DNA from: Rhodocyclales bacterium
Lineage (GTDB): Bacteria; Pseudomonadota; Gammaproteobacteria; Burkholderiales; Rhodocyclaceae
DNA: 42,564 nt
Direction: 5' to 3'
Assembly: GCA_016215645.1 (NCBI GenBank)
Contig: JACRIX010000001.1
Span: 1-42,564 of the forward strand
Positions 5,813 through 36,657 of this stretch are shown here, piece after piece. The first letter of the stretch is position 1. Each line of letters begins with the position of its first letter. Below the pieces are notes generated by a model. It did not search any database. It was not told the DNA's origin and saw nothing but the letters and a program-made list of their open reading frames with translations. The position numbers and the translations under genes are program-made.

Positions 5813-7611
5813 CCGTGGCGGGGATCATCAACCGCCGCGACCTCGACTTCCAGCTCTTCGAAGTCCTCGATGCCGAAGCGCTGACGCAGCGTCCGCGCTA
5901 CGCCGAGCACAGCCGCGAGACCTTCGCCGCCGTGCTCGACACGGCGACCGCCATCGCCGAAGAAAAGTTCGCGCCGCACAACCGCAAGGCCGACGAGCAC
6001 GAACCGACTTTCGACGGCCAGCGCGTGAGCATGATCCCGGAAGTGGCGGAAGCGCTGAAGGCCTTCTGCGAGGCCGGCTTCATCGCCGCCGCCCATGATT
6101 TCGAACGCGGCGGCATGCAGTTGCCGGTGCTGCTGACCCAGGCGGCGTTTTCCCTGTTCAAGGGCGCCAACGTCGGTACCGCCGCCTACCCCTTCCTCAC
6201 CATCGCCAACGCCAACGTCATCCACCGCTTCGGCAGCGATGCACAACGGGCAAAGTATCTCGGCCCGCTGCTGGCCGGCCGCTTCTTCGGCACCATGGCA
6301 CTCACCGAGCCGCAGGCCGGCTCCAGCCTGTCCGACATCACCACCAGCGCCACGCCCAACCCGGACGGTACGTATTCCATCGTCGGCAACAAGATCTTCA
6401 TTTCCGCCGGCGACCATGAACTGTCGGAAAACATCGTGCACCTGGTGCTGGCCAGGATCCCCGGCGGCCCGCCAGGCGTCAAGGGCATTTCGCTGTTCAT
6501 CGTGCCCAAGTTCCACGTCGATGCCGACGGCAGCCTCGGCGCCCGCAACGATGTGGCGCTGGCGGGACTGATCCACAAGATGGGCTATCGCGGCACCACC
6601 TCGACCCTGTTGAGCTTCGGCGAAAAGGGCGCCTGCATCGGCGAACGGGTGGGTGAAGCGCACAAGGGCCTCGCCACCATGTTCCACATGATGAACGAAG
6701 CGCGCATCGGCGTCGGCATGGGCGCCGTCATGCTGGGCTACCGCGGCTACCTCGCCTCGCTGGCCTACGCACAAGAGCGCCCGCAAGGCCGCGCGCCGAC
6801 CAACAAGAACCCGAGCGAGCCGCAGCTCAAGCTCATCGAACATGCCGACATCCGCCGCATGCTGCTGGCGCAGAAAGCCTATGTCGAGGCCGGCTATGCG
6901 CTGTGCCTGTATTGCGCGCGACTGGTGGATGAAACGAAAGTCGGCGCTGATGAGACGGCGATTCAGGAGGCCGGCCTGCTGCTCGACCTGCTGACGCCGA
7001 TCGCCAAGTCCTGGCCTTCGCAGTGGTGCCTCGAAGCCAACAGCCTGGCGATCCAGATCCACGGCGGCTACGGCTACACCCGCGAATATCCGGTCGAGCA
7101 GTATTACCGCGACAACCGCCTCAACCCCATCCACGAAGGCACCCACGGCATCCAGGCGCTCGACCTGCTCGGGCGCAAGGCGGTGATGAACGGCGGCGCG
7201 GCGATGAAGCTGTTTGCCCGCGAAGCCGCCAAAACCATCGCAGAGGCGCAAAGTGATTCGGCACTGGCCGCCTACGCCCGCGAGCTGCAGGCCGCCTTGG
7301 ACGAAGTCGCCACCACGCTGCAGGCCCTGGCGCCGACGCTGACCGCCAACCCGACGCTGGCGCTGGCCAATGCCGTGCTCTTCCTCGAAGCCTTCGGCCA
7401 CACGGTGATCGCCTGGATCTGGCTGCGTCAGGCACTCGCCGCGCAGCGTGGGCTGCAAAACGGCATCGCCGCCGACGCCGACTTCTATCGTGGCAAACTG
7501 GCCACCTGCCGCTGGTTCTACCGCTGGGAACTGCCCAAGGTGCGCCAGTGGCACGAACTGCTGCGCAGCCTCGACGACACGACTCTAACGATGCCACCTG
7601 AAAGTTTCTAG
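5809..7611 (+). CDS. acyl-CoA dehydrogenase with C-terminal domain, DmdC-like
   Basis: This 600-aa protein is much longer than ordinary ACADs (about 380 aa). It belongs to the class with an extra N-terminal segment and a C-terminal helical extension, which includes 3-methylmercaptopropionyl-CoA dehydrogenase DmdC. Visible features are the ACAD signature ([12 protein letters not shown]), the loop [13 protein letters not shown], the [18 protein letters not shown] segment, and [17 protein letters not shown], which carries the family's catalytic glutamate region. Its ATG overlaps the preceding stop as ATGA. It carries one copy of the dispersed 26-bp repeat at 6937-6962, translated as KVGADETA. 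It would catalyse a second, distinct acyl-CoA oxidation in the same pathway. Confidence 0.9.
6937..6962 (+). repeat. dispersed 26-bp repeat, copy 1
   Basis: Core AAAGTCGGCGCTGATGAGAC then GGCGAT. It is inside the DmdC-like dehydrogenase gene and translated as K-V-G-A-D-E-T-A. Over about 34 nt it matches copy 2 with roughly six differences. It lies in a poorly conserved loop between helices. Confidence 0.6.
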
Positions 7612-7614
7612 GCG

Positions 7615-8391
7615 ATGAGCCACCCCAACATCCTGGTTGACAGCAAGGACGGCATCGTCACGATCGAGATCAGCCGCCGCGAGAAGAAGAACGCCATCAC
7701 CTCCGACATGTACCGCGCCATGAGCACGGCGCTGTCGCGGGCGAGGGACGACAGCCATGTCCGTGTGGTGCTGCTGCGCGGCCAGGAGGACATGTTCACC
7801 GCCGGCAACGACCTCGCCGACTTCCTCCAGCGCAAGGCGGGCGACCCCAGTGCCGCGATTCCCTTCCTGCACCTCATCGCCGCCTTTGAAAAACCCATCG
7901 TCGCCGCCGTCGCCGGCAACGCGGTGGGCATCGGCACCACCATGCTGCTGCATTGCGACCTGGTGTATGCCGCCGACAATGCCAAATTCCAGCTGCCCTT
8001 CGTCAATCTCGCGCTCTGCCCCGAGGGCGGCTCCAGCCTGCTGCTGCCGCGCGTCGCCGGCTACCAGCGCGCCGCCGAACTGCTGATGCTGGGCGAGCCC
8101 TTCGATGCCGCCACGGCCCGCGAGGCCGGCTTCGTCAATCGGGTGTTGCCGGCCAGCGAGCTGATGGCTGCCGCGATGGAGGCGGCGCGGAAGCTCGCCG
8201 CCCGCCCGGCCGGATCGCTCGCCGTCACCAAGGCGCTGCTGAAGCGCCCGCCGGACCGCAGCGCGATAGAAGCCATCGACGAGGAAGTGATCTTCTTCGG
8301 CGACCTCGTCGCCGCCCCGGCCGCCAAGGAAATCTTCGCTGCCTTCCTCGAAAAGCGCAGCCCCGACCCCGACAAGATCCACCAAAAATGA
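7615..8391 (+). CDS. enoyl-CoA hydratase/isomerase family protein, ECI2-like
   Basis: This 258-aa crotonase-fold enzyme has one oxyanion-hole strand at VAGNAVGIGTTMLLHCDL and substrate-binding AGNDLADF earlier. At the catalytic positions it has LPFVNLALCPEGGSS: the hydratase glutamate of the PEI motif is replaced by Phe, while the PEG glutamate is kept. This is the pattern of delta3,delta2-enoyl-CoA isomerases of the ECI2 type, so isomerisation of a 3-enoyl-CoA to 2-enoyl-CoA is more likely than hydration. It starts 3 nt after the upstream stop. With the dienoyl-CoA isomerase later in the operon it suggests an unsaturated substrate. The family call is firm; the reaction is inference from the residues. 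Confidence 0.85.
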   Translation: MSHPNILVDSKDGIVTIEISRREKKNAITSDMYRAMSTALSRARDDSHVRVVLLRGQEDMFTAGNDLADFLQRKAGDPSAAIPFLHLIAAFEKPIVAAVAGNAVGIGTTMLLHCDLVYAADNAKFQLPFVNLALCPEGGSSLLLPRVAGYQRAAELLMLGEPFDAATAREAGFVNRVLPASELMAAAMEAARKLAARPAGSLAVTKALLKRPPDRSAIEAIDEEVIFFGDLVAAPAAKEIFAAFLEKRSPDPDKIHQK

Positions 8392-8831: not shown

Positions 8832-8833
8832 AC

Positions 8834-9553
8834 ATGGCGAAGATCCACGTCCTCCTCAAGAAGGAAGAACTCGACGCCCAGCGCCTCGACGGCAAGGTGG
8901 TCGTCGTGCTCGACATCCTCTTCGCCACCTCCTCCATCGTCACCGCCCTGGCCCACGGCGCCAGCGAAGTCATCGCCACGCCCGACGGCCGCGCCGCGCA
9001 GGCCGCCGCCGCCAACTACCCGGCCGACTCCTACGTGCTCTCCGGCGAACTGAATGCCGACACCTTGCCCGGCTTCGTGCACCCGACGCCGAAGGCGTTG
9101 CTGGCCGAAGGCATCGCCGGCCGGCGCCTGATCTACTGCACCACCAACGGCACCGTGGCGCTGGCCAAGTCGCAGGGCGCCGCCCACGTCTACGCCGCGG
9201 CCCTGCTCAATGGCCGCGCCGTGGTCGAACGCATCGTTGCGCAGCACGCGGATGCCACCATCCTGATCGTCTGCTCCGGCTCGGCGGACAACTTCAACCT
9301 CGAAGATTTCTACGGCGCCGGCTACCTGGTTTCTTTGTTTCGTCGCCGTGTCACCAGCGCCGACTTCTCCGACGCCGCGCTCGCCGCCGAGTTGCTGCAC
9401 GACCACTGCGACGGCCTCGATGTCCTGCGCCGCGCCCGTGTCGGCCGCATGATGCTGGCGCGCCGCCTCGATGACGAGGTCGCCTTCGCCGCGCAGGAAA
9501 GCTGTTTCAACGTGGTCCCCAAACTGCAAAACGGCGCCCTGCGCCCCGTCTGA
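8834..9553 (+). CDS. ComB-like 2-phosphosulfolactate phosphatase family protein
   Basis: This 239-aa protein has the landmarks of the ComB family: VVVVLDILFATSSIVTAL (family VVIDVLRATT), a GEL motif in VLSGELNAD, then CTTNGTVALAKSQGA and IVCSGSADNFNLEDFYGAG. ComB hydrolyses 2-phosphosulfolactate in coenzyme M synthesis using Mg2+. No other coenzyme M gene is present, and the gene sits 2 nt after a thioesterase in a beta-oxidation operon, so its true substrate here is probably different. The family's DVLRAT arginine is replaced (DILFAT), which may alter specificity. The fold assignment is confident and the function is not. Confidence 0.8.
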   Translation: MAKIHVLLKKEELDAQRLDGKVVVVLDILFATSSIVTALAHGASEVIATPDGRAAQAAAANYPADSYVLSGELNADTLPGFVHPTPKALLAEGIAGRRLIYCTTNGTVALAKSQGAAHVYAAALLNGRAVVERIVAQHADATILIVCSGSADNFNLEDFYGAGYLVSLFRRRVTSADFSDAALAAELLHDHCDGLDVLRRARVGRMMLARRLDDEVAFAAQESCFNVVPKLQNGALRPV

Positions 9554-9562
9554 AGGAATCCG

Positions 9563-10048
9563 ATGAGCACCAGGACATACACGTACTACTGGGAAGATTT
9601 CCCGGTCGGCAAGATCCGCGAGTTCGGCAGCTATCACGTCACCGCCGAGGAGATCATGGACTTCGCCAGGAAGTTCGACCCGCAGCCCTTCCACCTGTCC
9701 GAAGAAGCCGGCAAGGCCAGCCTGTTCGGCGGGCTGTGCGCCAGCGGCTGGCATACCTGCGCCATGGCGATGCGCATGATGTGCGACGAATTCCTGCTCG
9801 ACACTGCCAGCCTCGGCTCACCCGGCCTGGAGAACATCCGCTGGCTGAAACCCGTGCGCCCCGGCGACACGCTGCATGTGCGTTCGGTGGTTCTGGAGGC
9901 GCGGCCGATGGAAAGCAAGCCGCATGTCGGCCTGGTCCTGGTGCGCTGGGAAGTGCTGAACCAGAACAACGAGGAAGTGGCGCAGATGGAAGGCTACGGC
10001 ATGTATCGCCGGCGCCATCCCGGCGCGCCAAAAGACAGCGAGAAATGA
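9563..10048 (+). CDS. MaoC family dehydratase (R-specific enoyl-CoA hydratase-like)
   Basis: This 161-aa hotdog hydratase has the hydratase-2 catalytic motif in the segment DPQPFHLSEEAG, giving an Asp and a His about five residues apart, followed by FGGLCASGWHT. It would hydrate a 2-enoyl-CoA, or dehydrate a 3-hydroxyacyl-CoA, with R stereochemistry. With two crotonase-fold isomerases in the operon, this may be the true hydratase of the pathway. An AAGGAATCC ribosome-binding site precedes the ATG, and the stop overlaps the ligase ATG as ATGA. Confidence 0.88.
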   Translation: MSTRTYTYYWEDFPVGKIREFGSYHVTAEEIMDFARKFDPQPFHLSEEAGKASLFGGLCASGWHTCAMAMRMMCDEFLLDTASLGSPGLENIRWLKPVRPGDTLHVRSVVLEARPMESKPHVGLVLVRWEVLNQNNEEVAQMEGYGMYRRRHPGAPKDSEK

Positions 10049-11613
10049 CTCCTGCCGAGCTGATCGAACAGCCTTTCGGCACCTATGCCGAACTGATCCG
10101 CGCCCAGGCAAAAGTCCGCCCACGGCACACGGCACTGATCCAGGACGATCGAGAGGTTTCATTCGCCACGCTGGACGCGATGATGGATCGCGTCGCCGCC
10201 ACCTTGCAACGCGATGGCATCCACCCCACCGAGTCGATCGCCATCTGTGCGGGCACTTCGCTCGAATATGCCGCCGTGTTCCTCGGCGCCCTGCGCGCCG
10301 GCGTCGCCGTCGCACCGCTGGCGCCGTCTTCGACGCCGCAGACCATCGCCGACATGGCGGCGAATTCGGAGGCGCGCCTGTTCCTTGTCGACGCCGAGGT
10401 CGCCGCCGAGCTGGCCCCGGTGCAAACGCAAATCGCCGTGCCCTGGATCGCGCTCGACGAGTCCGCCGCCGGCACGCCCTTCTCGCGCTGGCTGGCCCCG
10501 GCCGGCAGCGTCCCCGAACCGGTGGCGATCCGCCCCGAGTGGCCGTTCAACATCATTTATTCCTCGGGTACCACCGGCACGCCCAAGGGCATCGTCCAGC
10601 CCCATGGCATGCGCTGGTCCCATGCACAGCGAGCACGTCCGCAAGGCTACGGGCCGGATTCGGTCACGGTCATCGCCACGCCGCTGTATTCCAACACCAC
10701 GCTGGTCAGCTTCTTCCCCACCGTTACGCTGGGCGGTACGGTAGTACTGATGGGAAAGTTCGCCACCACCGCCTACCTCGCATTGGCTGAAAAACATCGG
10801 GCCACGCACACGATGTTGGTGCCCGTTCAATACCGGCGCTTGATGGCCCATGCCGATTTCGATCGCTACGACCTCGCCAGCTTCCGCATGAAGCTGTGCA
10901 CCAGTGCGCCGTTTGCGGCAGCCCTCAAGGCCGATATCCTGCGCCGCTGGCCGGGCGGACTGGTCGAGTATTACGGCATGACCGAAGGCGGTGGCACCTG
11001 CATCCTCGCGGCCCACGAGCATCCCGACAAACTTGCCACGGTCGGCAAAGCCGCCGAGGGCCACGACATCCGCCTGATCGACGAAGCCGGCAGGGAAATT
11101 GCGCCGGGCGAAATCGGCGAAGTGGTGGGCCATTCGCCGGCGATGATGCAGGGCTACCACCGCCAGCCGGAGAAAACCCGCGAGGCCGAGTGGTACGCGC
11201 CGGACGGCAAGCGCTTCATCCGCACCGGCGACGTCGGCCGCTTCGATGCCGAGGGCTTTTTGACGCTGATGGACCGGCGCAAGGACATGATCATCAGCGG
11301 CGGCTTCAACGTCTATCCCAGCGACCTCGAAGCCGTGCTGGCGCAGCACCCCGCCGTGGCCGAGGCCGCGGTGGTCGGCGTCGCCTCGCCGCGCTGGGGC
11401 GAAACGCCGGTGGCCTTCGTGGTGACAAGAGTCGGCGCTGGCGACACGGCGATTCCGGCCGCAAGCGAACTGCGCGACTGGGCCAATGCCCGCCTGGGCA
11501 AGACCCAGCGCCTCGCCGCCGTCGAAATCGTCGATACCCTGCCGCGCAGCGCCATCGGCAAGATCCTCAAGCGCGAGCTGCGCGATACTTTCGTGCCGCC
11601 CGCCGATATTTGA
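10045..11613 (+). CDS. AMP-forming acyl-CoA ligase
   Basis: This 522-aa ANL-superfamily ligase has the P-loop-like motif YSSGTTGTPKG at about residues 171-181, the A5 motif YYGMTEGG, the A7 motif RTGDVGRFD with the ribose-binding Asp, and the A10 motif SAIGKILKRELRD with the catalytic lysine. It would activate the pathway's carboxylic acid to its CoA thioester with ATP. It most resembles fatty-acid/aromatic acid ligases, but the acid cannot be read from sequence. Its start overlaps the MaoC stop as ATGA. It contains copy 2 of the dispersed repeat (RVGAGDTA) in the C-terminal domain, at a loop where homologues vary. Confidence 0.93.
   Translation: MTPAELIEQPFGTYAELIRAQAKVRPRHTALIQDDREVSFATLDAMMDRVAATLQRDGIHPTESIAICAGTSLEYAAVFLGALRAGVAVAPLAPSSTPQTIADMAANSEARLFLVDAEVAAELAPVQTQIAVPWIALDESAAGTPFSRWLAPAGSVPEPVAIRPEWPFNIIYSSGTTGTPKGIVQPHGMRWSHAQRARPQGYGPDSVTVIATPLYSNTTLVSFFPTVTLGGTVVLMGKFATTAYLALAEKHRATHTMLVPVQYRRLMAHADFDRYDLASFRMKLCTSAPFAAALKADILRRWPGGLVEYYGMTEGGGTCILAAHEHPDKLATVGKAAEGHDIRLIDEAGREIAPGEIGEVVGHSPAMMQGYHRQPEKTREAEWYAPDGKRFIRTGDVGRFDAEGFLTLMDRRKDMIISGGFNVYPSDLEAVLAQHPAVAEAAVVGVASPRWGETPVAFVVTRVGAGDTAIPAASELRDWANARLGKTQRLAAVEIVDTLPRSAIGKILKRELRDTFVPPADI
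11427..11452 (+). repeat. dispersed 26-bp repeat, copy 2
   Basis: Core AGAGTCGGCGCTGGCGACAC then GGCGAT. It is translated in the ligase as R-V-G-A-G-D-T-A, between the strand FVVT and the helix SELRDWANARL, a variable loop of ligase C-terminal domains. Confidence 0.6.
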
Positions 11614-11624
11614 AAGGAAGCCCC

Positions 11625-13968: not shown

Positions 13969-14117
13969 TTTGACTCCCTTCCTCCGTTACCCGGTCCGCG
14001 TACGAGCGGCGGGCTGCTCTTGTGTGCGTTTCGCGGCAATCGGCCAGGCCGGCCCGTGAAGTGCCTGCGGAAGCCTACTACGAGGCGTCGCGCCGGTCAA
14101 AGCGGCGCGCCATGGCC

Positions 14118-14597
14118 TCACCCCATTCGCTCCACCCGGGGCTCGATGGCGATCGGAAAATTCACCGAATTGGCGATGTAGCAAAGCCGGTGCGCCTCCT
14201 CGTGCAAGGCCAGCGCCCGCGCCACATCCGCCTCCGGCGCCAGCGTAACCGCGGGGCGCAGCACCGCCGCCGTAAAGCGTCCGCCACCGCCCTCGTCCTC
14301 TTTCATGGTGGCTTCGGCCTCATCGCGGTAGGCCAGCACTACGATGCCGGCCGCGCTGCACAAGTGCAGGTACCACAGCATGTGACAGGAGGCGAGCGCG
14401 GCGACGAGCAGGTCTTCCGGGTTGTAGCGCGTTGCATCGCCGCGAAACGCCGGGTCCGACGAGCCTGCAAGCTCCGGCCGACCGGGGGCAACGATCCGGT
14501 GGTCGCGGGAATACGCGCGGTAGTCGGCCGTGCCTCGACCGAGGTTGCCGGTCCATTCGACGCAGGTCTGGTAGCGATGGGTCCGGTCGCGACTCAT
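14118..14597 (-). CDS. OsmC family peroxiredoxin-like protein
   Basis: This 159-aa OsmC/Ohr-fold protein carries the two redox cysteines of the family: NPEDLLVAALASCHMLWYL holds the first and RLCYIANSVNFPI the second. Such proteins reduce organic hydroperoxides with thiol partners. The ATG overlaps the stop of the upstream RDD gene (ATGA), so the two are co-expressed. A 149-bp spacer separates its stop from the hemerythrin start, and nothing recognisable is seen in that spacer. Confidence 0.88.
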   Translation of the reverse strand: MSRDRTHRYQTCVEWTGNLGRGTADYRAYSRDHRIVAPGRPELAGSSDPAFRGDATRYNPEDLLVAALASCHMLWYLHLCSAAGIVVLAYRDEAEATMKEDEGGGGRFTAAVLRPAVTLAPEADVARALALHEEAHRLCYIANSVNFPIAIEPRVERMG

Positions 14598-15055
14598 GAG
14601 GCCCGGCCCCCCTCGGCGTCACGTCGGGCGCGGATCACCACCGTATGCGCCAACTTGTCGTGCCAGCCCTGCTTGCGCTTGTCGAAGGCCACCCAGAGGA
14701 AGCCGAGACCCAGCGGTAGCGTCGACGCAAAATAGGCGAAATAGCGCCCGATGCCCTGATTCAGGCTCAGCGGGGCACCGCTGTCGGCATCCACCACTTT
14801 CAGCGACAGCAGCATCTTCCCCGGCGTGGCCTGGCGATGGCGCCAGAACAGGATCACCGCCAGCGAGGGCAGCACCCAGGAAATCAGGATATCCGCCGGC
14901 CCGGCGAACAGCCCGCTCATGCTGCCATCGAAATAGCGCGATCCGTAGATCCACCACAGCAACGGAAAGGTCACCAGCATCACCAGCAGGGTGTCGATGA
15001 TCGTCGCGGCGAAGCGTATCCAGAAGCCGGCGTAGTTCATGTCGTGTGTTTGCAT
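14594..15055 (-). CDS. RDD family membrane protein
   Basis: This 153-aa protein has the RDD domain. The N-terminal YAGFWIRFAATIIDTLLV carries the conserved Arg and Asp in the first membrane helix. A second hydrophobic segment is near ILISWVLPSLAVILFW, and a third is in FAYFASTLPLGLGFLWVAF. TPGKMLLSLKVVD and KRKQGWHDKLAHTVVI are typical. RDD proteins are small inner-membrane proteins, some proposed as ion antiporters. The start is set at the ATG at 15055 because an AGGGAGA site lies 6-7 nt before it and the RDD homology begins right after. The longer frame extends into a dispersed repeat copy upstream. Confidence 0.85.
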   Translation of the reverse strand: MQTHDMNYAGFWIRFAATIIDTLLVMLVTFPLLWWIYGSRYFDGSMSGLFAGPADILISWVLPSLAVILFWRHRQATPGKMLLSLKVVDADSGAPLSLNQGIGRYFAYFASTLPLGLGFLWVAFDKRKQGWHDKLAHTVVIRARRDAEGGRAS

Positions 15056-15114
15056 GTGGCATCTCCCTGGAACGTGGCGCAGCATAGCCATGATCGCTGC
15101 CGGGGACAAGGTGC

Positions 15115-15140
15115 TCGCCGTGTTGCCAGCGCCGACTTTT
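15115..15140 (-). repeat. dispersed 26-bp repeat, copy 3 (intergenic)
   Basis: On the minus strand the core is AAAAGTCGGCGCTGGCAACA then CGGCGA. It is the only intergenic copy, in the 103-bp spacer between a small exported-protein gene and the RDD gene. It is directly flanked by a perfect 7-bp-stem hairpin at 15141-15158. Confidence 0.6.
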
Positions 15141-15158
15141 GCCCGGCGCACGCCGGGC

Positions 15159-15533: not shown

Positions 15534-15557
15534 GTGCAGCGGGATTCCGAACGCGGA

Positions 15558-16688: not shown

Positions 16689-19600
16689 TCAATTGTATTC
16701 CAGACTGATCAGCTTGCCATGGGCCGCATAGAACACCGCCAGGCGTAGCGGCAGGCCTTCAGCGGCGAACAGCGCGGCATAGGATTCAAGCTGGGAACGG
16801 TAGCGCTCGGCATGCGCCTGCAAGCGCGCCGTATCGGCGTCCAGCCCGAGGTCGGCCGTCTTGAAATCCACGATCCAGCGCTCGCCTTCCTCGACGAAAC
16901 TGCGGTCGACGACACGGGTTTCCGCCGTGCCGCCAGCACCGACTTTCGCAATCGCCATTTCGGCACCGGAATCGGCACGCGGACGCAGTACCCACTGCCC
17001 GTCCTCGCTCGCCAGCGTGGTGAAGAGCAGGCGTGCGGCGCGCGCGGCGCCTTGCTGTGCCTCGGCCAGCGGCCAGCCCCGTCCTGCCAGCCAGCGCTCG
17101 AAGGCCGGCTGGCGTGCGGCGACTTGCGTGGGCAAGCACTCGCCGGGCTCCGCTGCCGCCATTTCCAGCAGCGCGTGCACCAGCGTACCGACATCTGCGG
17201 CCAGCGCATCGACGGTGTCTTCACGCACCAGGAGCGGTGTCGGCGGAGGCGGCGCCCGCCATGCCTCACGAAGGACCGGAGCGACAAGCCGCCGCAAGCG
17301 CGGTACAAAGTGGGCGAAATCGACTCCTTCATCTACGACAAGCGGCGTTGCAGGCGCAGCCGCAGCAAAGTCCGCCTCGACCAGCGGCCACAGCGTCGCC
17401 AGCAGCGAATTTACCGCCGGCGCGGCCAGGGTTCCGTCGTCCTTGCGGCCCGCCACCGCCACCAGATGCAGGCGGCGCACCGCGCGCGTAACCGCGACAT
17501 ACAGCACGCGTGCGGCCTCATTGCCGGCCCGTTCACGCTCCAGCCCCAGCAGGAAGTCATACGTCGTCGGCTCGCCCCGGGCGCGGCCCCGTCGCCGATT
17601 CACTGGCGCGACGACCAGGCGCTCGCCCTGCGCCAGCGGAAAGCTGTCCCAGGCCAGCAACGGGGCGTCCTGGGGCGGCGTCCCGCGATGCAGCCCGGGC
17701 AGGATCACGGTATCGAATTCCAGGCCCTTGGCCTTGTGGATGGTCATCAGTTGCAGGCTGCCGTCGGCCTGTGCATCGGGCACGGCAAACAGGCGCGCCA
17801 TGTCGGCTTCCAGGTTATCCAGCGCAAAGCGCCCCGCCGCATCGATCTCATCCAGGCGTTTGAAAAATGCCTGCGCGTCTGCCAGGGCCGCGGCGTCGCC
17901 GAGCACGGCCGGGCCGCCCAGCGTGGTCCATACATCCTCGACCCAGCGCCGTCGCGACTGCCGGCCCTGCCCCGCCAGGGCTTCGCCGATGACCACGCGC
18001 ACCTGCGCCAGGCGCCGCTGACCGTCGCCGGACAGCCGCGCGCTGCGCGCCTCGTCGTTGAGCAACGACCAGATCGTCGAATCATGGTCGTCGCCCGCCA
18101 GCGCGTGCAGGTCGGCCAACACCAGGCCGCACCAGGGCGCGCGCAGGATGGACAACCAATGCAGGCGGTCGCCGCGGTGATGCAGGGCGCGCGTCAGCGA
18201 AATCAGATCCTGTACCGCCTGACGGCCCGCCAGCGGCTCGATCTCAACCGCCGTATAGCGCCATCCGGCCGGATGGCGACGAATCGCCGCGACCAATGCC
18301 GCAAGATGGCTGCGCGCCCGCACCAGCACCGCAATCTGTCGCGCCGGATCGGCACGGCGCTCGGCCTCGATCAGGGACACCACATGTTCAGCCTCCAGCT
18401 GCTCGGCCGCCGCGCCATCCCCGCGCGCGGCCGTCAGCGCATGCACGGCGACCCCGGCATCGGCCAGATCTTCGCGGGTGGCGACGAACTCCCGGTAGGC
18501 GATTTCGCCACGCACGGGCTCATCCCGCGCCGGAAAGAGTTGCGGAAAGCCGTGATTGATCCATGCCACCACCGGCGCACAGGCGCGGTTGTTGCGCGAC
18601 AGGCGCAAGGCGTCGAGGCGCAGGCCGCCGATGCCCTGCGTCTTGGCGCGCAGGAACAGACCCACCTCGGCCTTGCGAAAGCGGTAGATCGACTGCATCG
18701 GATCGCCGACGCAGAACAGGGTTCGGCCATCACCCCGCTGCCAGCCGGCAGTGAGGCGTTCCAGCAGTTCGATCTGGGTCGGGCTGGTGTCCTGGAACTC
18801 GTCGACCAGCAGATGGCGAATGCGCCAATCCAGCCGCAGGCCAAGTTCCGTCGGGTCCATCTCATCGCCCAGCGCGGCGATGGCGCGTGCGGCCAACTCG
18901 CCGAAATCGACTTCGCCGGCCTCGCGGAACACCAGCCACAGCTCGGCCGCGGCAAGTTTCATCAGTCGCGCCAGGGCACGTACGATGTCGTCATTCTCAT
19001 GCGCCGGCGTCGGCAAGCGGCGCAGGCGCACCAGGGCGGCCACGGCCTGGTCGTCCAGCGACGCCAGCGCGGCCAGCATCGCCTCCTTTTGCGCCTTGAA
19101 TTCCTTGCCGGCGGGGAAACCGTTTTTAACGGTCACGGTCTTGCGCGGCGCGTCGTCCAGTGTCAGGAGGAAAGCGGCGAGTGCACGCCAGCGCGGCAGG
19201 ACGGCCATCTCTGGCGCCAGGGCCTGCGTCCAGTCGGCGAGCGGGTGTGGCGAACCGGCCGCCGCCAGCTGCGCGGCGGCAAAGCCTGCCAATGGCATCC
19301 ATGGCGCCTGCCAGGAGGCAGTGAGTGTCTGCGCCACATCGACAAGCTCCTCGACCAACATTTCCTCCAGCGCCGAGGCTATCGCCGACTCCGGATCATC
19401 GAGCGCGGCAATCGCGCGCCACTGCTCGCGCCGGGCCAGCATCGCCACCAGCAGGCCGATCAGGCGTTCGGCATCGTTGTCCATCCAGCCCAGGGCGGCC
19501 GCCACGGCGGCCGCGTGCTCCGCCCCCTCGGCGCCGTCCTCGAGATGGTCCAGTGCGCGCCGCGCGGCCTCACGATAATGTCGGCCGGCGTCATCGACGG

Positions 19601-22903: not shown

Positions 22904-24259
22904 TCATGGCGTGAGCCTGTCGGCCGGTGGTAGCGCATCCGGCGCCTGCAGCTCGGGAGCCTGCACCGCGCGCGGCACCACCTCGACCGGATTGAGGTCG
23001 CGGATTTCCTTGTCTTCGCTCGCCACCTTCAAGTCGCGGAATTTGCGCGCCGAAACCAGCACGCGCCGCTCCAGCGACGCCACCGAATCGTTGTAGGCAC
23101 CCACGGCCTCGCCGAGATTCTTGCCGACTCGCCCCCAGTGTTCGGCCACGGTGGCGATCCGGTCGTAAAGCTCGCGCCCCAGCACGCTGATGCGCTCGGC
23201 GTTCTCGGTCAGGGCCTGCTGGGTCCAGCCATAGGCCACGGCGCGCAACAGGGCAATCAGCGTGGTCGGCGTCGCCAGGATCACGCGGGCGTCGACGCCG
23301 GCTTCTATCAGCGAGGGATCGGCTTCCAGCGCCGCCGAATAAAACATCTCGCCCGGAAGGAACAGCACCACAAAATCCGGCGAGGGCTGGAATTGCTCCC
23401 AGTAGGATTTCTGGCCGAGCTTCTTCAAATGGTCGCGCACCTGACGGGCGTGGTCGGCCAGCTTGCGTTTCTTCGCGTCCTCGTCGGTCGCCTCCAGCGC
23501 GTCGAGGTAGGCCGCCAGCGGCGCCTTGGCATCGACCACGATGTTCTTGCCGCCGGGCAGGCGCACGATCAGATCGGGGCGCAGGCGGCCGTCCTCGGTA
23601 TTCACGTTTTCCTGCTCGAAAAAATCACAATGATCGAGCATGCCGGCCATTTCAACCACGCGCTTGAGTTGCAGTTCGCCCCAACGCCCTCGCGTCTGCG
23701 GCGCCCGCAGGGCCTTCACCAGATTGCCGGTTTCCTGGCGCAACTGGTCCTGCGCGCCGGCCAGTGAGCGCACCTGCTCGGTCAGCGTGGCATAGGCATC
23801 GACGCGGGCCTTCTCCAGGCCGGTGATCTGCAGTTCGAATTTCTCCAGCGAGGTCTTGACCGGGGCGACCAGTTCGCCGATGGCCTGCTGACGCTTTTCC
23901 AGTTCGCCTTTCGCTGCCGTCTGCTGGGCCTCCAGCGCGGCGCGGGCCAGTTCGAGAAAACTCTGGTTGTTCTTCACCAGGGCGTCGGCCGACAGGGACT
24001 TGAACGCGTCGGCGAAGCTGGACCGGGCAGCCTCCAGTGTCGCCTGACGCTCGGCATACAAGGCACGTTCGCTGTCGAGCGCGCTTTGCAATGTCGCGCA
24101 CCGTACCGCCAGCGCCGACTCTTTGTCGCGCAACACGGCAAGCTCGGCCTCACGTTGTGCCAGCGCCGTGCGCGCCTCTCGCACCCGGGCGGTGAACACA
24201 AAGGACACCAGTCCGCCCCCCAGCAGGAGGCCGGCCAACAAAGCAATGGTCATTTCCAT
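22904..24259 (-). CDS. rmuC: DNA recombination protein RmuC
   Basis: This 451-aa protein has an N-terminal membrane anchor ([20 protein letters not shown]), a long coiled coil to about residue 180, and then the RmuC nuclease-like domain. That domain begins at [19 protein letters not shown] and continues through [21 protein letters not shown] (restriction-endonuclease-type core), [15 protein letters not shown] and [17 protein letters not shown]. RmuC limits inversions at short repeats in E. coli; its biochemical activity is unproven. The start at 24259 is chosen ahead of the membrane segment, with a second ATG two codons later. It precedes the AddAB-like genes in the transcription direction, grouping DNA-repair functions. 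Confidence 0.92.
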
Positions 24260-26305: not shown

Positions 26306-28354
26306 TCACATTCCCGCTACGGCAAGCGCGGCGCCGGTGAAACGCAGCAGGCCCGCCACCAGCAGCGCGATGCCCACGGAAAGGGCCACCGAAAACGCCG
26401 CATCGCGCCGGCCAATGGTCTTCAGCATCACCGCAAAGGTGGACACGCAGGGCACGTAAAAGCTGATGAAGGCAAGCAGTACAAACATCTGCAAGGGTGC
26501 CAGCACCGTGCCAAGTTCCTGGGTACCCAGGGCCTGGTAGATCATCAACAGCGAGAGTTCCTTGCGCAGCACACCGAACAGGATCGGCACGCCCAGCGCC
26601 AGGGGCAAACCCAGCCACCAGACCGTAACCGGTGTCAGCAGCGTATTCACGATGGCATCGGCACCAAAATGGCCGAGCAACGCCAGTAGCACGCTGCCCC
26701 CCACCAGCAGGGGAGTGACGATGGTGATGATGTCGCTGGTGCGGTTCCAGGTCTCCACCAGCAAGCCGTGCCAGTCCGGCAACGCATAGGCCGGAATCTC
26801 CTGCACGCGTCCGGGTCCGAGATCCCGGGTCCCGCGGGAGAGAACATGCCCGGCAACGCCGATCACCACCAGGCTCAGGACGAACATGCCGACCACCCCG
26901 GCAACGCCGAGGTATTTGCCGGCGATGGCGAGGATGATGGCGGAGCGCGCGGAACAGGGAACGAAGGTGATCAGCACCGCCGCAATCACCCGCTCGCGCC
27001 CCGACGTCAGCCGCGCCGCGCCGGAAATTGCCGGCACGTTGCAGCCCAGGCCGAGCAGGAAGGGCAGCGCCACGCCGCCATGCAGGCCGATGCGATGGAA
27101 GCCGCGATCGACCACGAAGGCAATGCGCTGCATCAGGCCGGTCTGCTCCAGGCTGACCAGCAACATCACCAATGGAATCATGTAGGGCACAAAGATCCCC
27201 GTAAGCCCGATGATGCCGTCGAGCACCGCGCGCCCGACCACGCCGCCGGTGGAATCCGGCGTCCAGTCGGCGAAGGCCTCGGCGAGTCGCACCGTGGTCA
27301 TGGAGTCGATCCAGCCGCTGATCTCGAAGACGACGAAGAGCACGGCGGCAAACACCGCCAGGCTGCCGAGCAGGCCCCACTGCGGGTGGAGGAAGAGTTC
27401 GTCGAGCCAGTAGCGCCAGCCCTGCGCACCCGGCGTGCCCATGCGCATCGCCGACTCGACCAGGGTGGCGGCGCGGTGGTGCTGGTCGGCATGCAGTTCC
27501 TCGGCCAACGGCCGCGGCAGCACGGCGCCCGCCGCGTCGCGCAAGGTCAGAAGCTCCGCCAACAGATGCGGAAAATGCTCCCGCAGTTCGGCCTCGATGA
27601 ACCCGTCGGCACCGGCAAACTGCAACAGCAACCAGTCGTGCGGCACACGGAAGGCCGCATGCACATCCTCCCGATTCAGCGCCGCGGAAAGCGGCCCCAG
27701 GCTCTTTGCGATATGCGGGCTGGCCGGCTGCGGCAAGGGGCAACTGGCATTGCGTGCCGTGGTTGCCGCCCAGCCGAACAGTTGCGGCAATCCGTGCCCC
27801 ATCAGCGCCACCGTGGGAACCACGGGAATGCGCAGCGATACCTCAAGCGCCTTGACGTTGATCTGCAAGCCGGCCTTCAAGGCCTCGTCCATACGATTGA
27901 GCGCCATCACCACAGGCCGCCCCAGCCGACAAAGCTCCAGCGTCAATTCGAGGTGCGCCTGCAGGCGGCTGGCATCCACCACCTGGATAATGAGGTCGGG
28001 GGGCGAAAACGGCACCGGCGGCGCGGTCGGCTCGTGTCGGGACACCGGCGGACGCTCATCGCCCCACAACAGGTACTTGAGCGCAACCAGGTCATCACCC
28101 GCCAGATGCTGGAAGGATTGCACGTCGGGCAGTTCGACCAGGCTGGCTTCGTCGAGGCCGATCTGCACGGTACATTCGCGATAGACCCGGTTCGTACCGG
28201 TCAGTTCTCCGCGCTGGGGCGCGGCGCTGGACACGGCATCGAACAGGGTGGTCTTGCCGCCCCCGGGCAGCCCGACCAGGGCGATGCGCAACCGCCGCTC
28301 GCCGCGACACAGCGGCAAGCGCAGCGGGATGGATGCCTCAGAGCCGATATTCAA
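26306..28354 (-). CDS. FeoB-like GTPase-permease, no FeoA, degenerate G3
   Basis: This 682-aa protein has the FeoB layout: an N-terminal small GTPase and a C-terminal polytopic domain with two nucleoside-recognition/gate segments. G1 is GLPGGGKTTLFDAV, G4 is LNRMDEA and G5-like is VALMGHG. G3, normally DLPG, reads ELPD, so the residue that senses GTP gamma-phosphate is altered. The membrane part keeps FLLGLGCNVPAISGA, FVPCSARSAI and FVLLAFISFYVPCVSTF, which are FeoB hallmarks. The start is a TTG at 28354 overlapping the DUF294 stop by 17 nt; a TTG at 28291, just before the G1 strand, is an alternative. FeoA and FeoC are absent. Ferrous iron transport is the family role; the context hints at another ion or a signalling link. 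Confidence 0.83.
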   Translation of the reverse strand: MNIGSEASIPLRLPLCRGERRLRIALVGLPGGGKTTLFDAVSSAAPQRGELTGTNRVYRECTVQIGLDEASLVELPDVQSFQHLAGDDLVALKYLLWGDERPPVSRHEPTAPPVPFSPPDLIIQVVDASRLQAHLELTLELCRLGRPVVMALNRMDEALKAGLQINVKALEVSLRIPVVPTVALMGHGLPQLFGWAATTARNASCPLPQPASPHIAKSLGPLSAALNREDVHAAFRVPHDWLLLQFAGADGFIEAELREHFPHLLAELLTLRDAAGAVLPRPLAEELHADQHHRAATLVESAMRMGTPGAQGWRYWLDELFLHPQWGLLGSLAVFAAVLFVVFEISGWIDSMTTVRLAEAFADWTPDSTGGVVGRAVLDGIIGLTGIFVPYMIPLVMLLVSLEQTGLMQRIAFVVDRGFHRIGLHGGVALPFLLGLGCNVPAISGAARLTSGRERVIAAVLITFVPCSARSAIILAIAGKYLGVAGVVGMFVLSLVVIGVAGHVLSRGTRDLGPGRVQEIPAYALPDWHGLLVETWNRTSDIITIVTPLLVGGSVLLALLGHFGADAIVNTLLTPVTVWWLGLPLALGVPILFGVLRKELSLLMIYQALGTQELGTVLAPLQMFVLLAFISFYVPCVSTFAVMLKTIGRRDAAFSVALSVGIALLVAGLLRFTGAALAVAGM

Positions 28355-30227
28355 GCTGCAAGCGCGACTGCAGGCGTTTGGCCTGCTTGAAGGCTTCCTT
28401 CAACATTTGCCGGTCAAGCTCATTGAGCTTGTCCGGATCAATCCGGTTCTCGCCGCCGGGGGCGGTGCCGGCGCGCTGGTTGCGCAGGCGCAACTGCTGG
28501 ATGATGAAAAAGCCCTCGATCACCGCATTGATGTCATCGCCGCCCAGAAGCTGTTGCGCCGACGCGCTGCGCAAGCGTTCGACAGTGCTGCTGTGGGGAA
28601 TGTTGTGGGCCAGCGCGATGATGCGCGCGGCATCGACGAAAGGGCGCGCGCCGAAGGCCTTGAGGTCGAGCGTATGGGGAAAATCGGGATTGGCGTCGAA
28701 GACGAAGTCGCGGATCATGCCCAGCGGCGGCGTCGCCTTGACCGCGTTTTCGGCCATGAAGCGCAGGAACATTTTTGCATCCGCCGTGAGCGCGAGCAGC
28801 CATTGCCGCAGTTCGCGCGCCAGCGCGTCGTCTCCGAACAGGGGGCGGAAGTCGAAAAAGATCGTGGCATTCAGCAGCGCCTCGGGCTCGGGTGAGCGGA
28901 TCCACTTCGAGAAGCAGTCGCGCCACTCGTCCTGCGACAGGCACCATGAGGGATTGCTGGCCATGATGTTGCCCTTGCACAGGGGGAAGCCGCAGCGGGC
29001 GAGTCCTTCGTTGACGTCCTTGGCGAAGACAAGGAAGCGCTGGCGCAGGACGTCGAGTTCGGCACCGTCGGGACAGGTGAAAATGATCCCGTTGTCCTGG
29101 TCGGTGCTGAAGGTCTGTTCATCCCGCCCCTCGGAGCCGAAGGCCAGCCAGGACCAATGCAGGCCGTCGAGATTGTGGTGGTCCAGGCAAAGCTCGATGA
29201 CACGGCGGGTCAGGCTGTCGTTCAGCCCGGAAATGAACTGGGTCAGCTTCTCCGCATTGACGCCCTGGGCAAGCATGTTGAGGCACAGGCGACGCACGTC
29301 GCCGGCGGCGCGCGCCAGTTCGTCCATGTTCGCGGCGCCCTCGATCACCTTGCGCACGTTGCGCAGGCCGATGCGCTGCATGGCGAACAGGTCACGTTCG
29401 GAAACCACGCCGGCCACCTTGTCATCCGCATCGACGATGACCAGGTGGCGGATGCGATGCATGGCCATCGCCAGCATGGCGTCGTAGGCCGTGGCATGCG
29501 AGGAGATGGTGGCCGGCGGCGCCGTCATCACCTCGGAGATCGGCGCGGTGACCGCGTGCCCGGGTATCATCACGCGGCGCAGGGCATCGCTCTGGGTGAA
29601 GATCCCCGCCGGCTTGCCATCGGCATCGGCAATGATCACCGAACCGACCTTGGACTTGACCATGGTCGCCATGGCTTCGGCAATCGTCGTCGAGGGTGCA
29701 ATGCGGACCACGCTCGGGCGCACAAACACCGTGAGCGGCGCATTCATGGTCTGCTGGTCGGCATTGCGCTGGCCGAACTGGATCTCGATCTGGCGCCGGG
29801 CCTCGTGCAACAACCCGGCCACATGGTCGAGCACGAAACGGTTGAACTCGCAACTCGACAGCAGCAGCGCGGCAAAGTCGGCGCTGGCCAGACGCCAACA
29901 TTTGACCTCTCCGACCGCGCTATAGACATTGATGGCCGGCCGCCGCGCCGCCGTCGCCGCCAGCGGAAAGCTCTGCCCGACCTCAAGATCGTAAAGCGGC
30001 GGGTCGATCAGGGTGACATCGCCGACTTGGCGCACCTGCACCTTGCCCGATTCGATGATGAAAAGATCGGGCGGCATGTCGTCCGGCGTCAGGATATGAC
30101 CACCATCAACGACGGTGACGGGTTTCAGTGCGGTGGCCAGTGCGTCCAGGGCAAACGCCCCCATGTCCTTGTAGGGGGGGTGGCGGCGCAGGAAGGCGCG
30201 AAGTTCCGCGCGCGATTCGGTACTCAT
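28338..30227 (-). CDS. cNMP-binding/CBS/DUF294 nucleotidyltransferase
   Basis: This 629-aa multidomain protein has a cyclic-nucleotide-binding-like domain at about residues 15-130 (DLFIIESGKVQVRQVG). A pair of CBS domains follows at about 165-285 (VGSVIIADADGKPAGIFTQ and IRHLVIVDADDKVAGVVSE). A GlnD-like nucleotidyltransferase domain begins at GSEGRDEQTFSTDQDNG (residues 364-380) with the expected D-x-D metal ligands. The DUF294 C-terminal helical domain extends from about 480 to the end. Such proteins are thought to nucleotidylate a partner in response to adenylate or cyclic-nucleotide levels; the target is unknown. It lies 8 nt after its shorter paralogue and overlaps the FeoB-like gene. 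Confidence 0.88.
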   Translation of the reverse strand: MSTESRAELRAFLRRHPPYKDMGAFALDALATALKPVTVVDGGHILTPDDMPPDLFIIESGKVQVRQVGDVTLIDPPLYDLEVGQSFPLAATAARRPAINVYSAVGEVKCWRLASADFAALLLSSCEFNRFVLDHVAGLLHEARRQIEIQFGQRNADQQTMNAPLTVFVRPSVVRIAPSTTIAEAMATMVKSKVGSVIIADADGKPAGIFTQSDALRRVMIPGHAVTAPISEVMTAPPATISSHATAYDAMLAMAMHRIRHLVIVDADDKVAGVVSERDLFAMQRIGLRNVRKVIEGAANMDELARAAGDVRRLCLNMLAQGVNAEKLTQFISGLNDSLTRRVIELCLDHHNLDGLHWSWLAFGSEGRDEQTFSTDQDNGIIFTCPDGAELDVLRQRFLVFAKDVNEGLARCGFPLCKGNIMASNPSWCLSQDEWRDCFSKWIRSPEPEALLNATIFFDFRPLFGDDALARELRQWLLALTADAKMFLRFMAENAVKATPPLGMIRDFVFDANPDFPHTLDLKAFGARPFVDAARIIALAHNIPHSSTVERLRSASAQQLLGGDDINAVIEGFFIIQQLRLRNQRAGTAPGGENRIDPDKLNELDRQMLKEAFKQAKRLQSRLQLEYRL

Positions 30228-30235
30228 GGTGATTC

Positions 30236-31306: not shown

Positions 31307-31322
31307 GGCGAAGTGACCGGAA

Positions 31323-33895: not shown

Positions 33896-33906
33896 TGGCT
33901 CCCCCC

Positions 33907-36657
33907 TCAGGAATTTTTCCCATTATCACCCGCCTGACGTGGCAGGGTAAACAGGAAACGCGCCCCGGCGCCGGGAGCGCTTTCGACCCACAGGCGGCCG
34001 TTGAAGTATTCGATGATCTGGCGGCTGATGGGCAGGCCCAGGCCGGTGCCCTGCGGCTTGTCGGTAAGCACGTCGGTGCCGCCCGAACCCTGGCGGAACT
34101 TGTCGAAAATCACCTCGTGGTCGGCGGCATGGATGCCCGGGCCGTTGTCGGCAACGCTGACGCGCACCTCGCTCGCCGTCCCTTCAGCGCCGACTCTTAC
34201 GCGGCCGCTGTCGGCCGGCGCGAATTTCAGCGCATTCGACAGCAGGTTCACCATCACCTGCATCAGGCGATCGCGGTCGGCCATCACCGTCAGCTCCGTG
34301 TGCAGACCGGCAAGATCCAGCGTAACCCGCTTTTCGGCGAACAGCGCGGTCAGCGAATCCGCCGCCTCGTGGATCACCTCGTCGACGTCGATCGCGGTCA
34401 CCGTCCATTCCGCGCGGCCGGATTCGAGCTTGGCGAGGTCGAGGATCTGGTTGATCAGGCGCGACAGGCGCACGGTTTCGCTGACGATGATGCCGAGGAA
34501 CCTGGTGCGCTGGTCCAGGTCGGTCTTCGGGTCCTCGTGCAGCATCTCGGAAAAGGCGCGGATCGAGGTCAGCGGCGTGCGCAGCTCGTGGGTCACCGTG
34601 GAGATGAAATCGTCCTTCATGCGGTCCAGCTCGCGCAGACGCTCGTTGGCCTGCCGCAGGTCCGCCGTGGCCCGCGTCAGTTCCTGCGACTTCTGTTCCA
34701 GTTCGCGCGAATAGGCGCGCACCTGCGAGGCCTCGTCGAGGATGTTCATCACCTCGTCGAGGCCCAGCGGCTCCTCGCTGACCACCGACGCCACCATGGC
34801 CCGCGCCGAGGCCGAACCGATGGCGCCGGCCAGCAGGTTCTCGGCAAAGTTCGCCAGCCGCGCGTCACCCGGCAGCTCATCGACCAGCCTCAGGCCGCGG
34901 CTGCGCGCATGGCGCAGGAAGGCCTCCTCGGCACGTTCGCGGCCGAGAAAGCGGGCGGCCAGCGGCAGCAGGTCGGCCACGCCGGCACTGCCGCCCCAGG
35001 CCGTGTGGCCGGCGAGGTCGGTGCCGCCGACGAACAGCGAGGCCTGGCGCGCCTCGCGCGCATTGGGCACGCGCAGCAGCGAAACACCGATGTAGGCGCC
35101 GAGGTTGACCAGCAGGCTCCAGACCAGGCAGTGGGTGATCTCATCCAGCCCGGTCAGGCCGAACAGGTGCTGCGGCCGCAGCAGCTCGATGCCGAACAGG
35201 CCGTGGGCGATGAAGCCTTCCGGCAGCCAGCCCGACTTGGCGAAGGACGGCAGCAGCAGCGTGTAGGCCCAGAGCACGAAGCCGAGGGCAAGCCCGGCGA
35301 CCGCGCCATCGCGCGTGCCGCCCTTCCAGAACAGGCCGCCGATCAGCACCGGCGCGAACTGGGCCACGGCAGCAAAGGAAATCAGGCCGATCGAGACCAG
35401 GGCGTAGGCCTCGCCGGCAACACGAAAATAAAGGTAGCCGAGGCCGAGGATGATGGCGATGGCCCAACGCCGGATCTCCAGCAGCAGGCCCGAGAGGTCG
35501 GCCTTCTCTGCCAGACCCAGCCAGCGCAGGCGCAGCAGCAGCGGCATCACCAGGTCATTGCAGACCATGGTCGACAGCGCGATGGTCTCGACGATGACCA
35601 TGCCGGTCGCCGCCGAGAGGCCGCCGATGAAGACGAACAGCGCCAGCGCCTCCTGCTGGTGGGCCATCGGCAGGGTGAGCACGAAGGTGTCGGCGTCCAC
35701 CGTACCCGCCGGGAAATGCAGCAGCCCGGCCAGCGCCACCGGCAGCACGAAGAGGTTGATCAGGAACAGGTAGAGCGGGAACATCCACACCGCGCGGTTG
35801 AGGTGCTTGACGTCGACGTTTTCCACGACCGCGATCTGGAACTGGCGCGGCAGCAGCAGGGCCGCGAACAAGGAAAGGAAGATCAGCGTGCCCCAGCTGC
35901 CGTAGGCCGCCGAGGTGTCGGCGCGGGTCAGGCGGCGCGCCACCTCCGGCACCTCGGCGGCGCGCGCGAAGACCTCGGCGACGCCGCCGTGCAAGCCCCA
36001 GACGACGAAGGCGCCGACCGCGAGGAAGGCCACCAGCTTGACGATGGACTCGACCGCGATCGCCGCCACCATGCCCTCGTGACGCTCGGTGGCGTCAAGG
36101 TGCCGCGTGCCGAAGAGGATGGTGAAGGCGGCGAGGATCATCGCCACGTAGAGTGCGCTGTCCTGAAACAGCGGCACCGCGCCGGCGCTGGCCGGCATCA
36201 CGATTTCGGGATAGCTGGTGAGGATGGTGAAGCTGTTCGACACCGCCTTCAGCTGCAGCGCGATGTAGGGAATCACCCCGACCACCGCGATCACCGTGAC
36301 CAGGCCGCCGAGCAGTTGGCTCTTGCCGTAGCGCGAGGCGACGAAGTCGGCGATCGAGGTGATGCGGTTGGCCTTGGCCACACGGATCATGCGGAAGAGG
36401 ATGAAACCGGCCAGCGCGAACAGCAGCGTCGGGCCGAGGTAGATCGGCAGAAAGCCGATGCCGTTGGCCGCGGCGCGGCCAACGCTGCCGTAGAAGGTCC
36501 AGGTGGTGCAATACACGCCCAGCGACAAGGAATACACCACCGGATTGGCGATCAGCGAGCGGCCGTGGTCGGCCCGATGATCGGCATACCAGGCGATGCC
36601 GAACAGCACCCCGAGGTAGAGGAAGGACGCGAGGACGATGACCCAGCCTTGCAGCAT
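33907..36657 (-). CDS. sodium/solute symporter-histidine kinase fusion (CbrA-like)
   Basis: This 916-aa protein joins a SLC5/SSS-type transporter to a histidine kinase. About residues 1-500 hold some 13 membrane helices, with CTTWTFYGSVGRAAANGIGF and the RITSIADFVASRYGKS motif of the family. A cytosolic STAC-like linker and coiled coil follow, then the H-box DFISTVTHELRTPLTS with His690. The ATPase domain has MVNLLSNALKFAP (N), VADNGPGI (G1) and GTGLGLPISRQI (G2). It is shorter than Pseudomonas CbrA, with no clear PAS domain. The ATG shares a base with the preceding small-protein stop (TGATG). It probably senses, and may import, an organic nutrient such as a carboxylate or amino acid. It contains repeat copy 6 (RVGAEGTA) in the ATPase domain. 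Confidence 0.92.
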   Translation of the reverse strand: MLQGWVIVLASFLYLGVLFGIAWYADHRADHGRSLIANPVVYSLSLGVYCTTWTFYGSVGRAAANGIGFLPIYLGPTLLFALAGFILFRMIRVAKANRITSIADFVASRYGKSQLLGGLVTVIAVVGVIPYIALQLKAVSNSFTILTSYPEIVMPASAGAVPLFQDSALYVAMILAAFTILFGTRHLDATERHEGMVAAIAVESIVKLVAFLAVGAFVVWGLHGGVAEVFARAAEVPEVARRLTRADTSAAYGSWGTLIFLSLFAALLLPRQFQIAVVENVDVKHLNRAVWMFPLYLFLINLFVLPVALAGLLHFPAGTVDADTFVLTLPMAHQQEALALFVFIGGLSAATGMVIVETIALSTMVCNDLVMPLLLRLRWLGLAEKADLSGLLLEIRRWAIAIILGLGYLYFRVAGEAYALVSIGLISFAAVAQFAPVLIGGLFWKGGTRDGAVAGLALGFVLWAYTLLLPSFAKSGWLPEGFIAHGLFGIELLRPQHLFGLTGLDEITHCLVWSLLVNLGAYIGVSLLRVPNAREARQASLFVGGTDLAGHTAWGGSAGVADLLPLAARFLGRERAEEAFLRHARSRGLRLVDELPGDARLANFAENLLAGAIGSASARAMVASVVSEEPLGLDEVMNILDEASQVRAYSRELEQKSQELTRATADLRQANERLRELDRMKDDFISTVTHELRTPLTSIRAFSEMLHEDPKTDLDQRTRFLGIIVSETVRLSRLINQILDLAKLESGRAEWTVTAIDVDEVIHEAADSLTALFAEKRVTLDLAGLHTELTVMADRDRLMQVMVNLLSNALKFAPADSGRVRVGAEGTASEVRVSVADNGPGIHAADHEVIFDKFRQGSGGTDVLTDKPQGTGLGLPISRQIIEYFNGRLWVESAPGAGARFLFTLPRQAGDNGKNS
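34173..34198 (-). repeat. dispersed 26-bp repeat, copy 6
   Basis: On the minus strand the core is AAGAGTCGGCGCTGAAGGGA then CGGCGA. It is translated as R-V-G-A-E-G-T-A in the turn between two strands of the kinase ATPase domain, before VRVSVADNGPG. Confidence 0.55.

Follow-up and report, generated by a model that had tools for sequence, protein, structure and literature searches.

A 26-bp word that occurs in hundreds of copies in the genome of a Rhodocyclales bacterium (NCBI GenBank assembly GCA_016215645.1) and in genomes of related Rhodocyclaceae is probably a DNA uptake sequence, similar to the DUS of Neisseriaceae and the USS of Pasteurellaceae, a function which is predicted here from sequence and which had not been described in this family. 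What was observed is a genome-wide excess of the word, its presence or absence without indels, its retention across species, its lack of significant polarity, its scarcity in DNA of low GC content, its restriction to part of the family and its occurrence in dialects. Searches of the published literature for competence in these bacteria, for uptake sequences in Rhodocyclaceae and for natural transformation in Sulfuritalea found none, and searching the core letters of the motif as text returned only works unrelated by title. The stretch of 42,564 nucleotides that was analysed (contig JACRIX010000001.1, positions 1 to 42,564) is hereafter called the window; genomes, genera and fetched stretches are referred to by numbers preceded by G, g and L, respectively. 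The dispersed repeat which an earlier note had reported in the window is real, and the interpretation given there is partly supported.

Alignment of 266 distinct copies, collected in the window and in the fetched loci, gave the consensus AAAAGTCGGCGCTGGCGRNACGGCGA, with information content nearly nil beyond approximately 26 bp. The bit content is inflated, as the copies had been collected with the motif pattern itself, but both edges fall outside this pattern, and scanning the stretches of the bacterium's own genome with the 26-letter consensus, allowing up to six mismatches, gave the same picture. The window contains seven exact copies of RAGTCGGYGCTGNNNNNACGGCG and two near copies (two mismatches to the 24-letter pattern):

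6936-6961 (+), exact copy, sense in the acyl-CoA dehydrogenase-like CDS 5809-7611 (+), read K-V-G-A-D-E-T-A
9343-9368 (-), exact copy, antisense in the CDS 8834-9553 (+), Pfam 2-ph_phosp
11427-11452 (+), exact copy, sense in the AMP-binding ligase CDS 10045-11613 (+)
15115-15140 (-), exact copy, at the 5' end of an RDD-family gene or just upstream of it (ORF 14594-15151 (-), predicted start 15040), tallied as intergenic
16922-16947 (-), exact copy, sense in the AddA-like CDS 16689-20030 (-)
20813-20838 (+), exact copy, antisense in the AddB-like CDS 20027-22744 (-)
24098-24123 (-), near copy with two mismatches, in the RmuC CDS 22904-24259 (-)
29873-29898 (+), near copy with two mismatches, antisense in the DUF294/CBS CDS 28338-30227 (-)
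34173-34198 (-), exact copy, sense in the histidine kinase CDS 33907-36657 (-)

All six copies of the earlier note are present and fit one consensus, the first being shifted one base to the left (6936-6961). Its list was incomplete, having missed the exact copy at 9343-9368 (-) and the two-mismatch copies at 24098-24123 (-) and 29873-29898 (+). The reading directions given there were confirmed for the copies at 6936, 11427, 16922 and 34173 (sense) and at 20813 (antisense); for the copy at 15115, not counted there among the coding ones, the choice of start codon decides whether it falls in the RDD-family gene at its 5' end or just before it. At 36968-42562 (-) the window contains large CDSs with repeats spaced by 27 nt, which we take to resemble those of RTX-type calcium-binding proteins, and no motif copy with two or fewer mismatches was found there.

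The bacterium's own genome (3.41 Mb in 106 contigs) contained 576 copies with two or fewer mismatches (275 and 301 on the two strands), compared with 6 (1 and 5) for the reversed pattern. In the CDS of the window 6 exact copies were found, whereas 500 synonymous-codon permutations gave a mean of 0.018 (maximum 1), and in 392 kb of predicted CDS 43 exact copies were found against a mean of 0.10 (maximum 1) in 100 such permutations. Chance enrichment or codon use, an alternative which the earlier note had kept, was ruled out by the reversed-pattern and permutation controls, and the codon-preserving control proposed there did not refute the repeat.

The position of the copies relative to genes was determined in a 433-kb sample consisting of the window and 20 stretches of the same genome (378 predicted genes, 90 % coding according to a simple gene finder), the density of which (91 copies in 433 kb) is somewhat higher than that of the genome (576 in 3.41 Mb) as the stretches were picked from copy-bearing contigs. 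Thirty-five of the 91 copies were sense in the K/R-V-G-A-x-x-T-A frame and 4 were sense in other frames, 32 (17 + 13 + 2) were antisense, 19 were intergenic and 1 was at a gene edge. Intergenic copies were in excess (19/91 copies, 9.6 % non-coding DNA, p = 0.001). The preference for one reading frame that had been noticed in the window is thus real (35 of 39 sense copies). We infer that it reflects which frames yield harmless or acceptable peptides, the motif itself being a feature of the DNA.

All 30 congeners searched carried the motif, in 63 to 775 copies, whereas counts in the same sample were 0 to 12, similar to controls, for six further genera of Rhodocyclaceae and for 24 genera from outside it. 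Among 395 genomes of the family, from 68 genera, at least 100 copies were found in 56 genomes belonging to seven genera: 22 of 23 genomes of the window's genus (g1), 18 of 19 of g43, all 4 of g70, all 9 of g88 and single members of g32, g62 and g69. Counts in between were observed in G017 of g1 (63 copies), g38 (49), one of two genomes of g47 (54), g80 (26) and g34 (3 to 28), and a few further genomes of the family had 12 to 19 copies. Named records contained exact copies in at least 116 stretches; among the matches listed, 61 of 80 were assigned to Sulfuritalea, Rugosibacter, Rhodocyclaceae or Rhodocyclales. Lone low-copy genomes occur within bearer genera, namely G017 (g1), G205 (g34) and G293 (g43), the last having only 2 copies. 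These are apparent natural cases of loss of the motif, and the ComEC frame is open in both G017 and G293.

How individual sites come and go was examined in the AddA-like and AddB-like genes of the window, which were aligned with those of 14 and 15 congeners, respectively (G010 was dropped from the addA alignment as too short). The addB site was kept, with two or fewer mismatches, in 13 of 16 sequences including the window, and none of them had an indel at the site; a second addB site was present in G014 alone, with gene length unchanged. The addA site was present at the same alignment column in 9 of 15 sequences including the window (two or fewer mismatches), in a linker of variable length, so that the evidence on its origin is ambiguous. 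Identical codons were in moderate excess at both sites (addB 87/124, rest of the gene 5050/9009; addA 15/20, rest of the gene 6734/10976), figures which are free of the two-mismatch selection.

For a larger comparison, all fetched DNA was searched by tblastn with 206 copies that lie within open frames of the genomes G000 and G002. Of the 221 pairs obtained, 44 represented duplicate addB loci and were removed; the remaining 177 cover 50 copies and are tblastn matches of at least 50 % identity with orthology unproven. The motif was retained in 91 pairs, absent without a gap in 52 and gapped in 34, and a clean absence of the repeat as a block of 18 to 33 nt was found in 0 of the 177. Fixed columns were conserved at 94.8 % and flanks at 72.2 %, a difference which is partly circular as pairs were selected at two or fewer mismatches. 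In the low-copy genome G017, 2 of 14 pairs retained the motif, 7 had decayed by 3 to 5 substitutions, 4 had decayed further and 1 was gapped. When conservation of the segment was checked in two genera that do not bear the motif (G034 and G110), as the earlier note had advised, it was kept in 0 of 8 pairs. Because 52 of 177 pairs had lost the motif without a gap, no clean block absence occurred and addB was without indels, we conclude from these alignments that sites arise and vanish by point mutation in place.

The earlier note had preferred the idea that small repeats had become inserted, in frame, within genes, as known in Rickettsia. The sharp edges at approximately 26 bp and the in-frame preference agree with this, as do the copies in linkers of variable length (addA), the 34 of 177 pairs with some gap nearby and a copy interrupted by a 21-nt insert (L052 compared with L105). 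However, 52 of the 86 non-retaining pairs were ungapped, the addB sites are of equal length among congeners, the copies are not palindromic and the dialects described below alter many copies in situ. As relatives had no empty sites in the 177 pairs, an insertion element was rejected, and we regard it as extremely unlikely. For L302 8864-8886 (G002), the gapped matches in other comEC loci had intact or degenerate copies nearby.

Strand and composition were examined in the single-contig congener G002, sampled as 40 stretches of 20 kb at nearly even spacing (800 kb). Its 150 copies were divided between the G-rich strand (69) and the C-rich strand (81) without significant bias (p = 0.37), and the one-strand appearance of the matches listed for congeners was not borne out by this sampling. 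A polar chromosome motif of the KOPS (FtsK) or Chi (AddAB/RecBCD) type would agree with the abundance of the word and with the AddAB-like gene pair within the window, but because strand bias along the chromosome of G002 was not significant, the word is not of this type; the chance that it is one is close to nil. KOPS and Chi motifs, of approximately 8 bp, are also far shorter than 26 bp. Inverted pairs, which in DUS and USS systems commonly but not obligatorily serve as terminators, were rare (2/181 adjacent spacings under 120 bp). Six stretches below 60 % GC (120 of the 800 kb), a limit picked after the data had been seen, held only 8 of the 150 copies (p = 0.0003). This scarcity fits depletion in recently acquired DNA, and composition alone could contribute to it.

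The spelling of the word differs between lineages. When words were counted without a preset pattern in 200 kb of G063, from genus g34, where the standard form is almost absent, the top word was GACTGACTTT, the reverse complement of AAAGTCAGTC. The g34 dialect, AAAAGTCAGTCCCSGCRGNACGGCG, keeps the standard spacing to ACGGCG, and in one pair of G063 and G002 genes (59-62 % protein identity) the g34 form stood opposite the standard form without a gap. A skeleton pattern that leaves the middle unspecified (AAAAGTC-N7-GC-N3-ACGGC, at most one mismatch) matched, apart from the known bearers, 132 to 401 times in 13 of 16 g34 genomes, 40 to 112 times in 4 of 6 g90 genomes and 77 times in G076 (g47), while controls had 15 or fewer copies. 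In g90, G119 and G252 had 0 exact skeleton matches with the flank filter despite 103 and 112 one-mismatch matches.

Smaller differences were observed as well. G001 had 521 loose matches but 15 exact standard ones (flank filter), and among the matches listed AGTTGG occurred in 63 of 89 one-mismatch rows compared with 11 exact standard copies; in G028 all 6 one-mismatch rows listed had AGTTGG, beside 18 exact copies, and the G016 locus L183 had two AGTTGG copies and one standard copy. GCGGCG was found in 23 of 26 rows among the matches listed for G305, GTCGACG in 12 of 12 rows of G098 and the ending GGCA in 97 % of 33 copies of G132 (g43), and G061 had a mixture of GGTGCTG and GGCGCTG. At the addB site, G016 had the T form where others had C, through a synonymous change of a proline codon from CCG to CCA. 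No clear over-abundant word that could represent a new dialect was found in the small samples of G017 (120 kb) and G293 (42 kb). Hundreds of dispersed sites that share the spelling of their lineage suggest a genome-wide process which is tied to a recogniser.

ComEC was found in all 79 genomes searched (77 over the cut-off), the bacterium's own genome, a MAG of 80 % completeness, giving only a weak match. A pilin of the ComP_DUS family was found in 75 and GspH/FimT in 74 of the 79 genomes, and G002 has a pilin cluster with ComP_DUS-like, FimT/GspH, PilW and PilY1 genes and a PilX-like gene below the cut-off. The PF16732 and PF12019 pilins are candidates for the receptor. As ComP_DUS, ComEC and GspH/FimT occur in bearers and non-bearers, they fail as discriminators between the two; ComEC and minor pilins are present in the motif-loss genomes G017 and G293 too, and presence of the machinery does not track the motif. 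Stand-alone ComEA (TIGR00426) exceeded the cut-off in only 13 of 64 genomes. Three of five g88 bearers were over it, but none of the 19 genomes of the window's genus was, single-contig G002 included. By similarity, a ComEA-like frame was found in none of the fetched stretches, which cover part of any genome. Weaker ComEA matches were mostly in frames of approximately 800 codons, presumably DNA ligase.

An uptake function would require that the tag on the cell's own DNA is recognised outside the cell by a receptor linked to type IV pili, most likely a minor pilin, and that tagged DNA from relatives is imported preferentially. Biased uptake followed by recombination, i.e. molecular drive, could then spread and maintain the copies, and dialects would follow changes in the receptor. 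A molecular-drive account of uptake sequences is given in PMC1939737. A recogniser favouring tagged DNA of kin explains abundance, birth by mutation, retention, non-polarity and dialects together. The uptake or binding motif that the earlier note had listed as an alternative is therefore the favoured reading, on account of the over-abundance, the in-place origin and the dialects. We nevertheless call it probable rather than firm because of the gap at ComEA, which means either that a diverged ComEA was missed or that import differs. Other points that count against uptake are the machinery genes shared by bearers and non-bearers, the scarcity of inverted pairs, a length greater than that of DUS, the copies in IMG/VR contigs and the merely moderate excess of identical codons at the addB and addA sites.

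The word could instead be a non-polar chromosomal site that is recognised by a conserved DNA-binding protein of the cytoplasm, involved in nucleoid organisation, segregation or division, with which it co-evolves and hence forms dialects. The spread over both strands of the sampled chromosome, the conserved positions and the restriction to a clade would fit the genome-wide site of any co-evolving protein, and ComEA was not over the cut-off in the genus. The sites of matS, SlmA, Noc and ParB are palindromic and far fewer, however, whereas this motif is asymmetric, numbers hundreds of copies and is mostly intragenic, and repeated dialect changes over hundreds of sites would fit an uptake-driven process more easily; such a site appears unlikely. 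Alternatively, the tag might serve DNA exchange without competence of the ComEA type, by a phage-like or vesicle-borne carrier or another import system, as the absence of stand-alone ComEA over the cut-off in the window's genus and the copies in integron cassettes and IMG/VR contigs could suggest. Since ComEC and the minor-pilin cluster are present, and a diverged or fused ComEA could have escaped the search, this route is considered very unlikely.

One named record, L065 144-5803 (JALHPU010000019.1), is read from its attC-like repeats as a putative integron cassette array. Of its 11 cassette segments, five together account for eight of the nine motif copies; these eight share one orientation, and three of the five segments have two copies each. 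In four of the five no ATG/GTG reading frame exceeds 92 codons, the fifth having a frame of 181 codons, while four of the six copy-free segments have frames of 149 to 174 codons and two of 91 to 96. Should the tag be an uptake signal, tagged cassettes would make the integron array attractive cargo. Among the IMG/VR contigs (L363-L442), exact copies were found in at least 120 stretches, so that the tag may also occur in phages or proviruses of these hosts. In G339 (g42), at least ten identical copies of AAAAGGCACTGAACGCGAAACGGC were seen across contigs among the matches listed; they probably represent a mobile element present in several copies.

Several papers (PMC1626085, PMC7811141, PMC12616744, PMC3630211, PMC1939737) describe DNA uptake sequences specific to self in Neisseriaceae and Pasteurellaceae. 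If environmental Rhodocyclaceae have a third such system, of unrelated sequence, this would suggest that systems of this kind evolve repeatedly. The dozens of genomes in varied dialect states, apparent losses included, could be used to test molecular drive against selection. If the reading is true, the tag would predict which species exchange genes, and Sulfuritalea-like type strains could become genetically tractable, as efficient transformation can depend on a tag. A more specific proposal, that this is a third and independently evolved exchange of tagged DNA at the level of a family, with a bipartite 26-bp tag, at least six dialects, a receptor other than ComP, perhaps ComEA-free import and a cassette-borne tag in some members, is tentative and, on balance, doubtful.

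Of the known systems, Rickettsia palindromic elements are longer, palindromic repeats inserted in frame inside unrelated genes. The 26-bp word resembles them in forming in-frame repeats in unrelated genes and differs from them in that its sites arise by substitution. Stretches L341-L350 of G034, the genus of which is at control level for the 26-bp motif, contain a different over-abundant word, TGTGGGAGCGGC, which presumably resembles REP-type repeats; this too is an over-abundant short repeat in the same family, but it is a different word in another genus. DUS are approximately 12 bp long, USS have A/T-rich flanks, and the sequences of both are unrelated to the 26-bp word. In the Rhodocyclaceae the word is bipartite and has 26 bp, with receptor and uptake inferred from sequence, and its inverted pairs are rare (2/181), unlike those of the DUS in Neisseria.

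DUS occur in Neisseriaceae in dialects with a common core, according to Frye et al. (2013, PMC3630211); like the DUS as presented there, the word is restricted to a clade of betaproteobacteria, hugely over-abundant, with many intragenic copies, and has lineage dialects with a conserved part and single-base switches. The USS of Pasteurellaceae (PMC1626085, PMC7811141, PMC12616744) is a composite word dispersed genome-wide, in which a strong core is accompanied by other conserved positions, as observed here, and the receptor proposed for it is a minor pilin of the FimT/GspH type, which is also a candidate here. The Pasteurellaceae, however, are Gammaproteobacteria with another sequence, and the word described here has a second conserved half, ACGGCG. 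The traits of DUS and USS that were found in the word are over-representation, dispersal on both strands, a mostly genic yet intergenic-enriched location, in-place origin and dialects; on all sequence features tested, with the exception of inverted pairs, the 26-bp word matches the DUS and USS.
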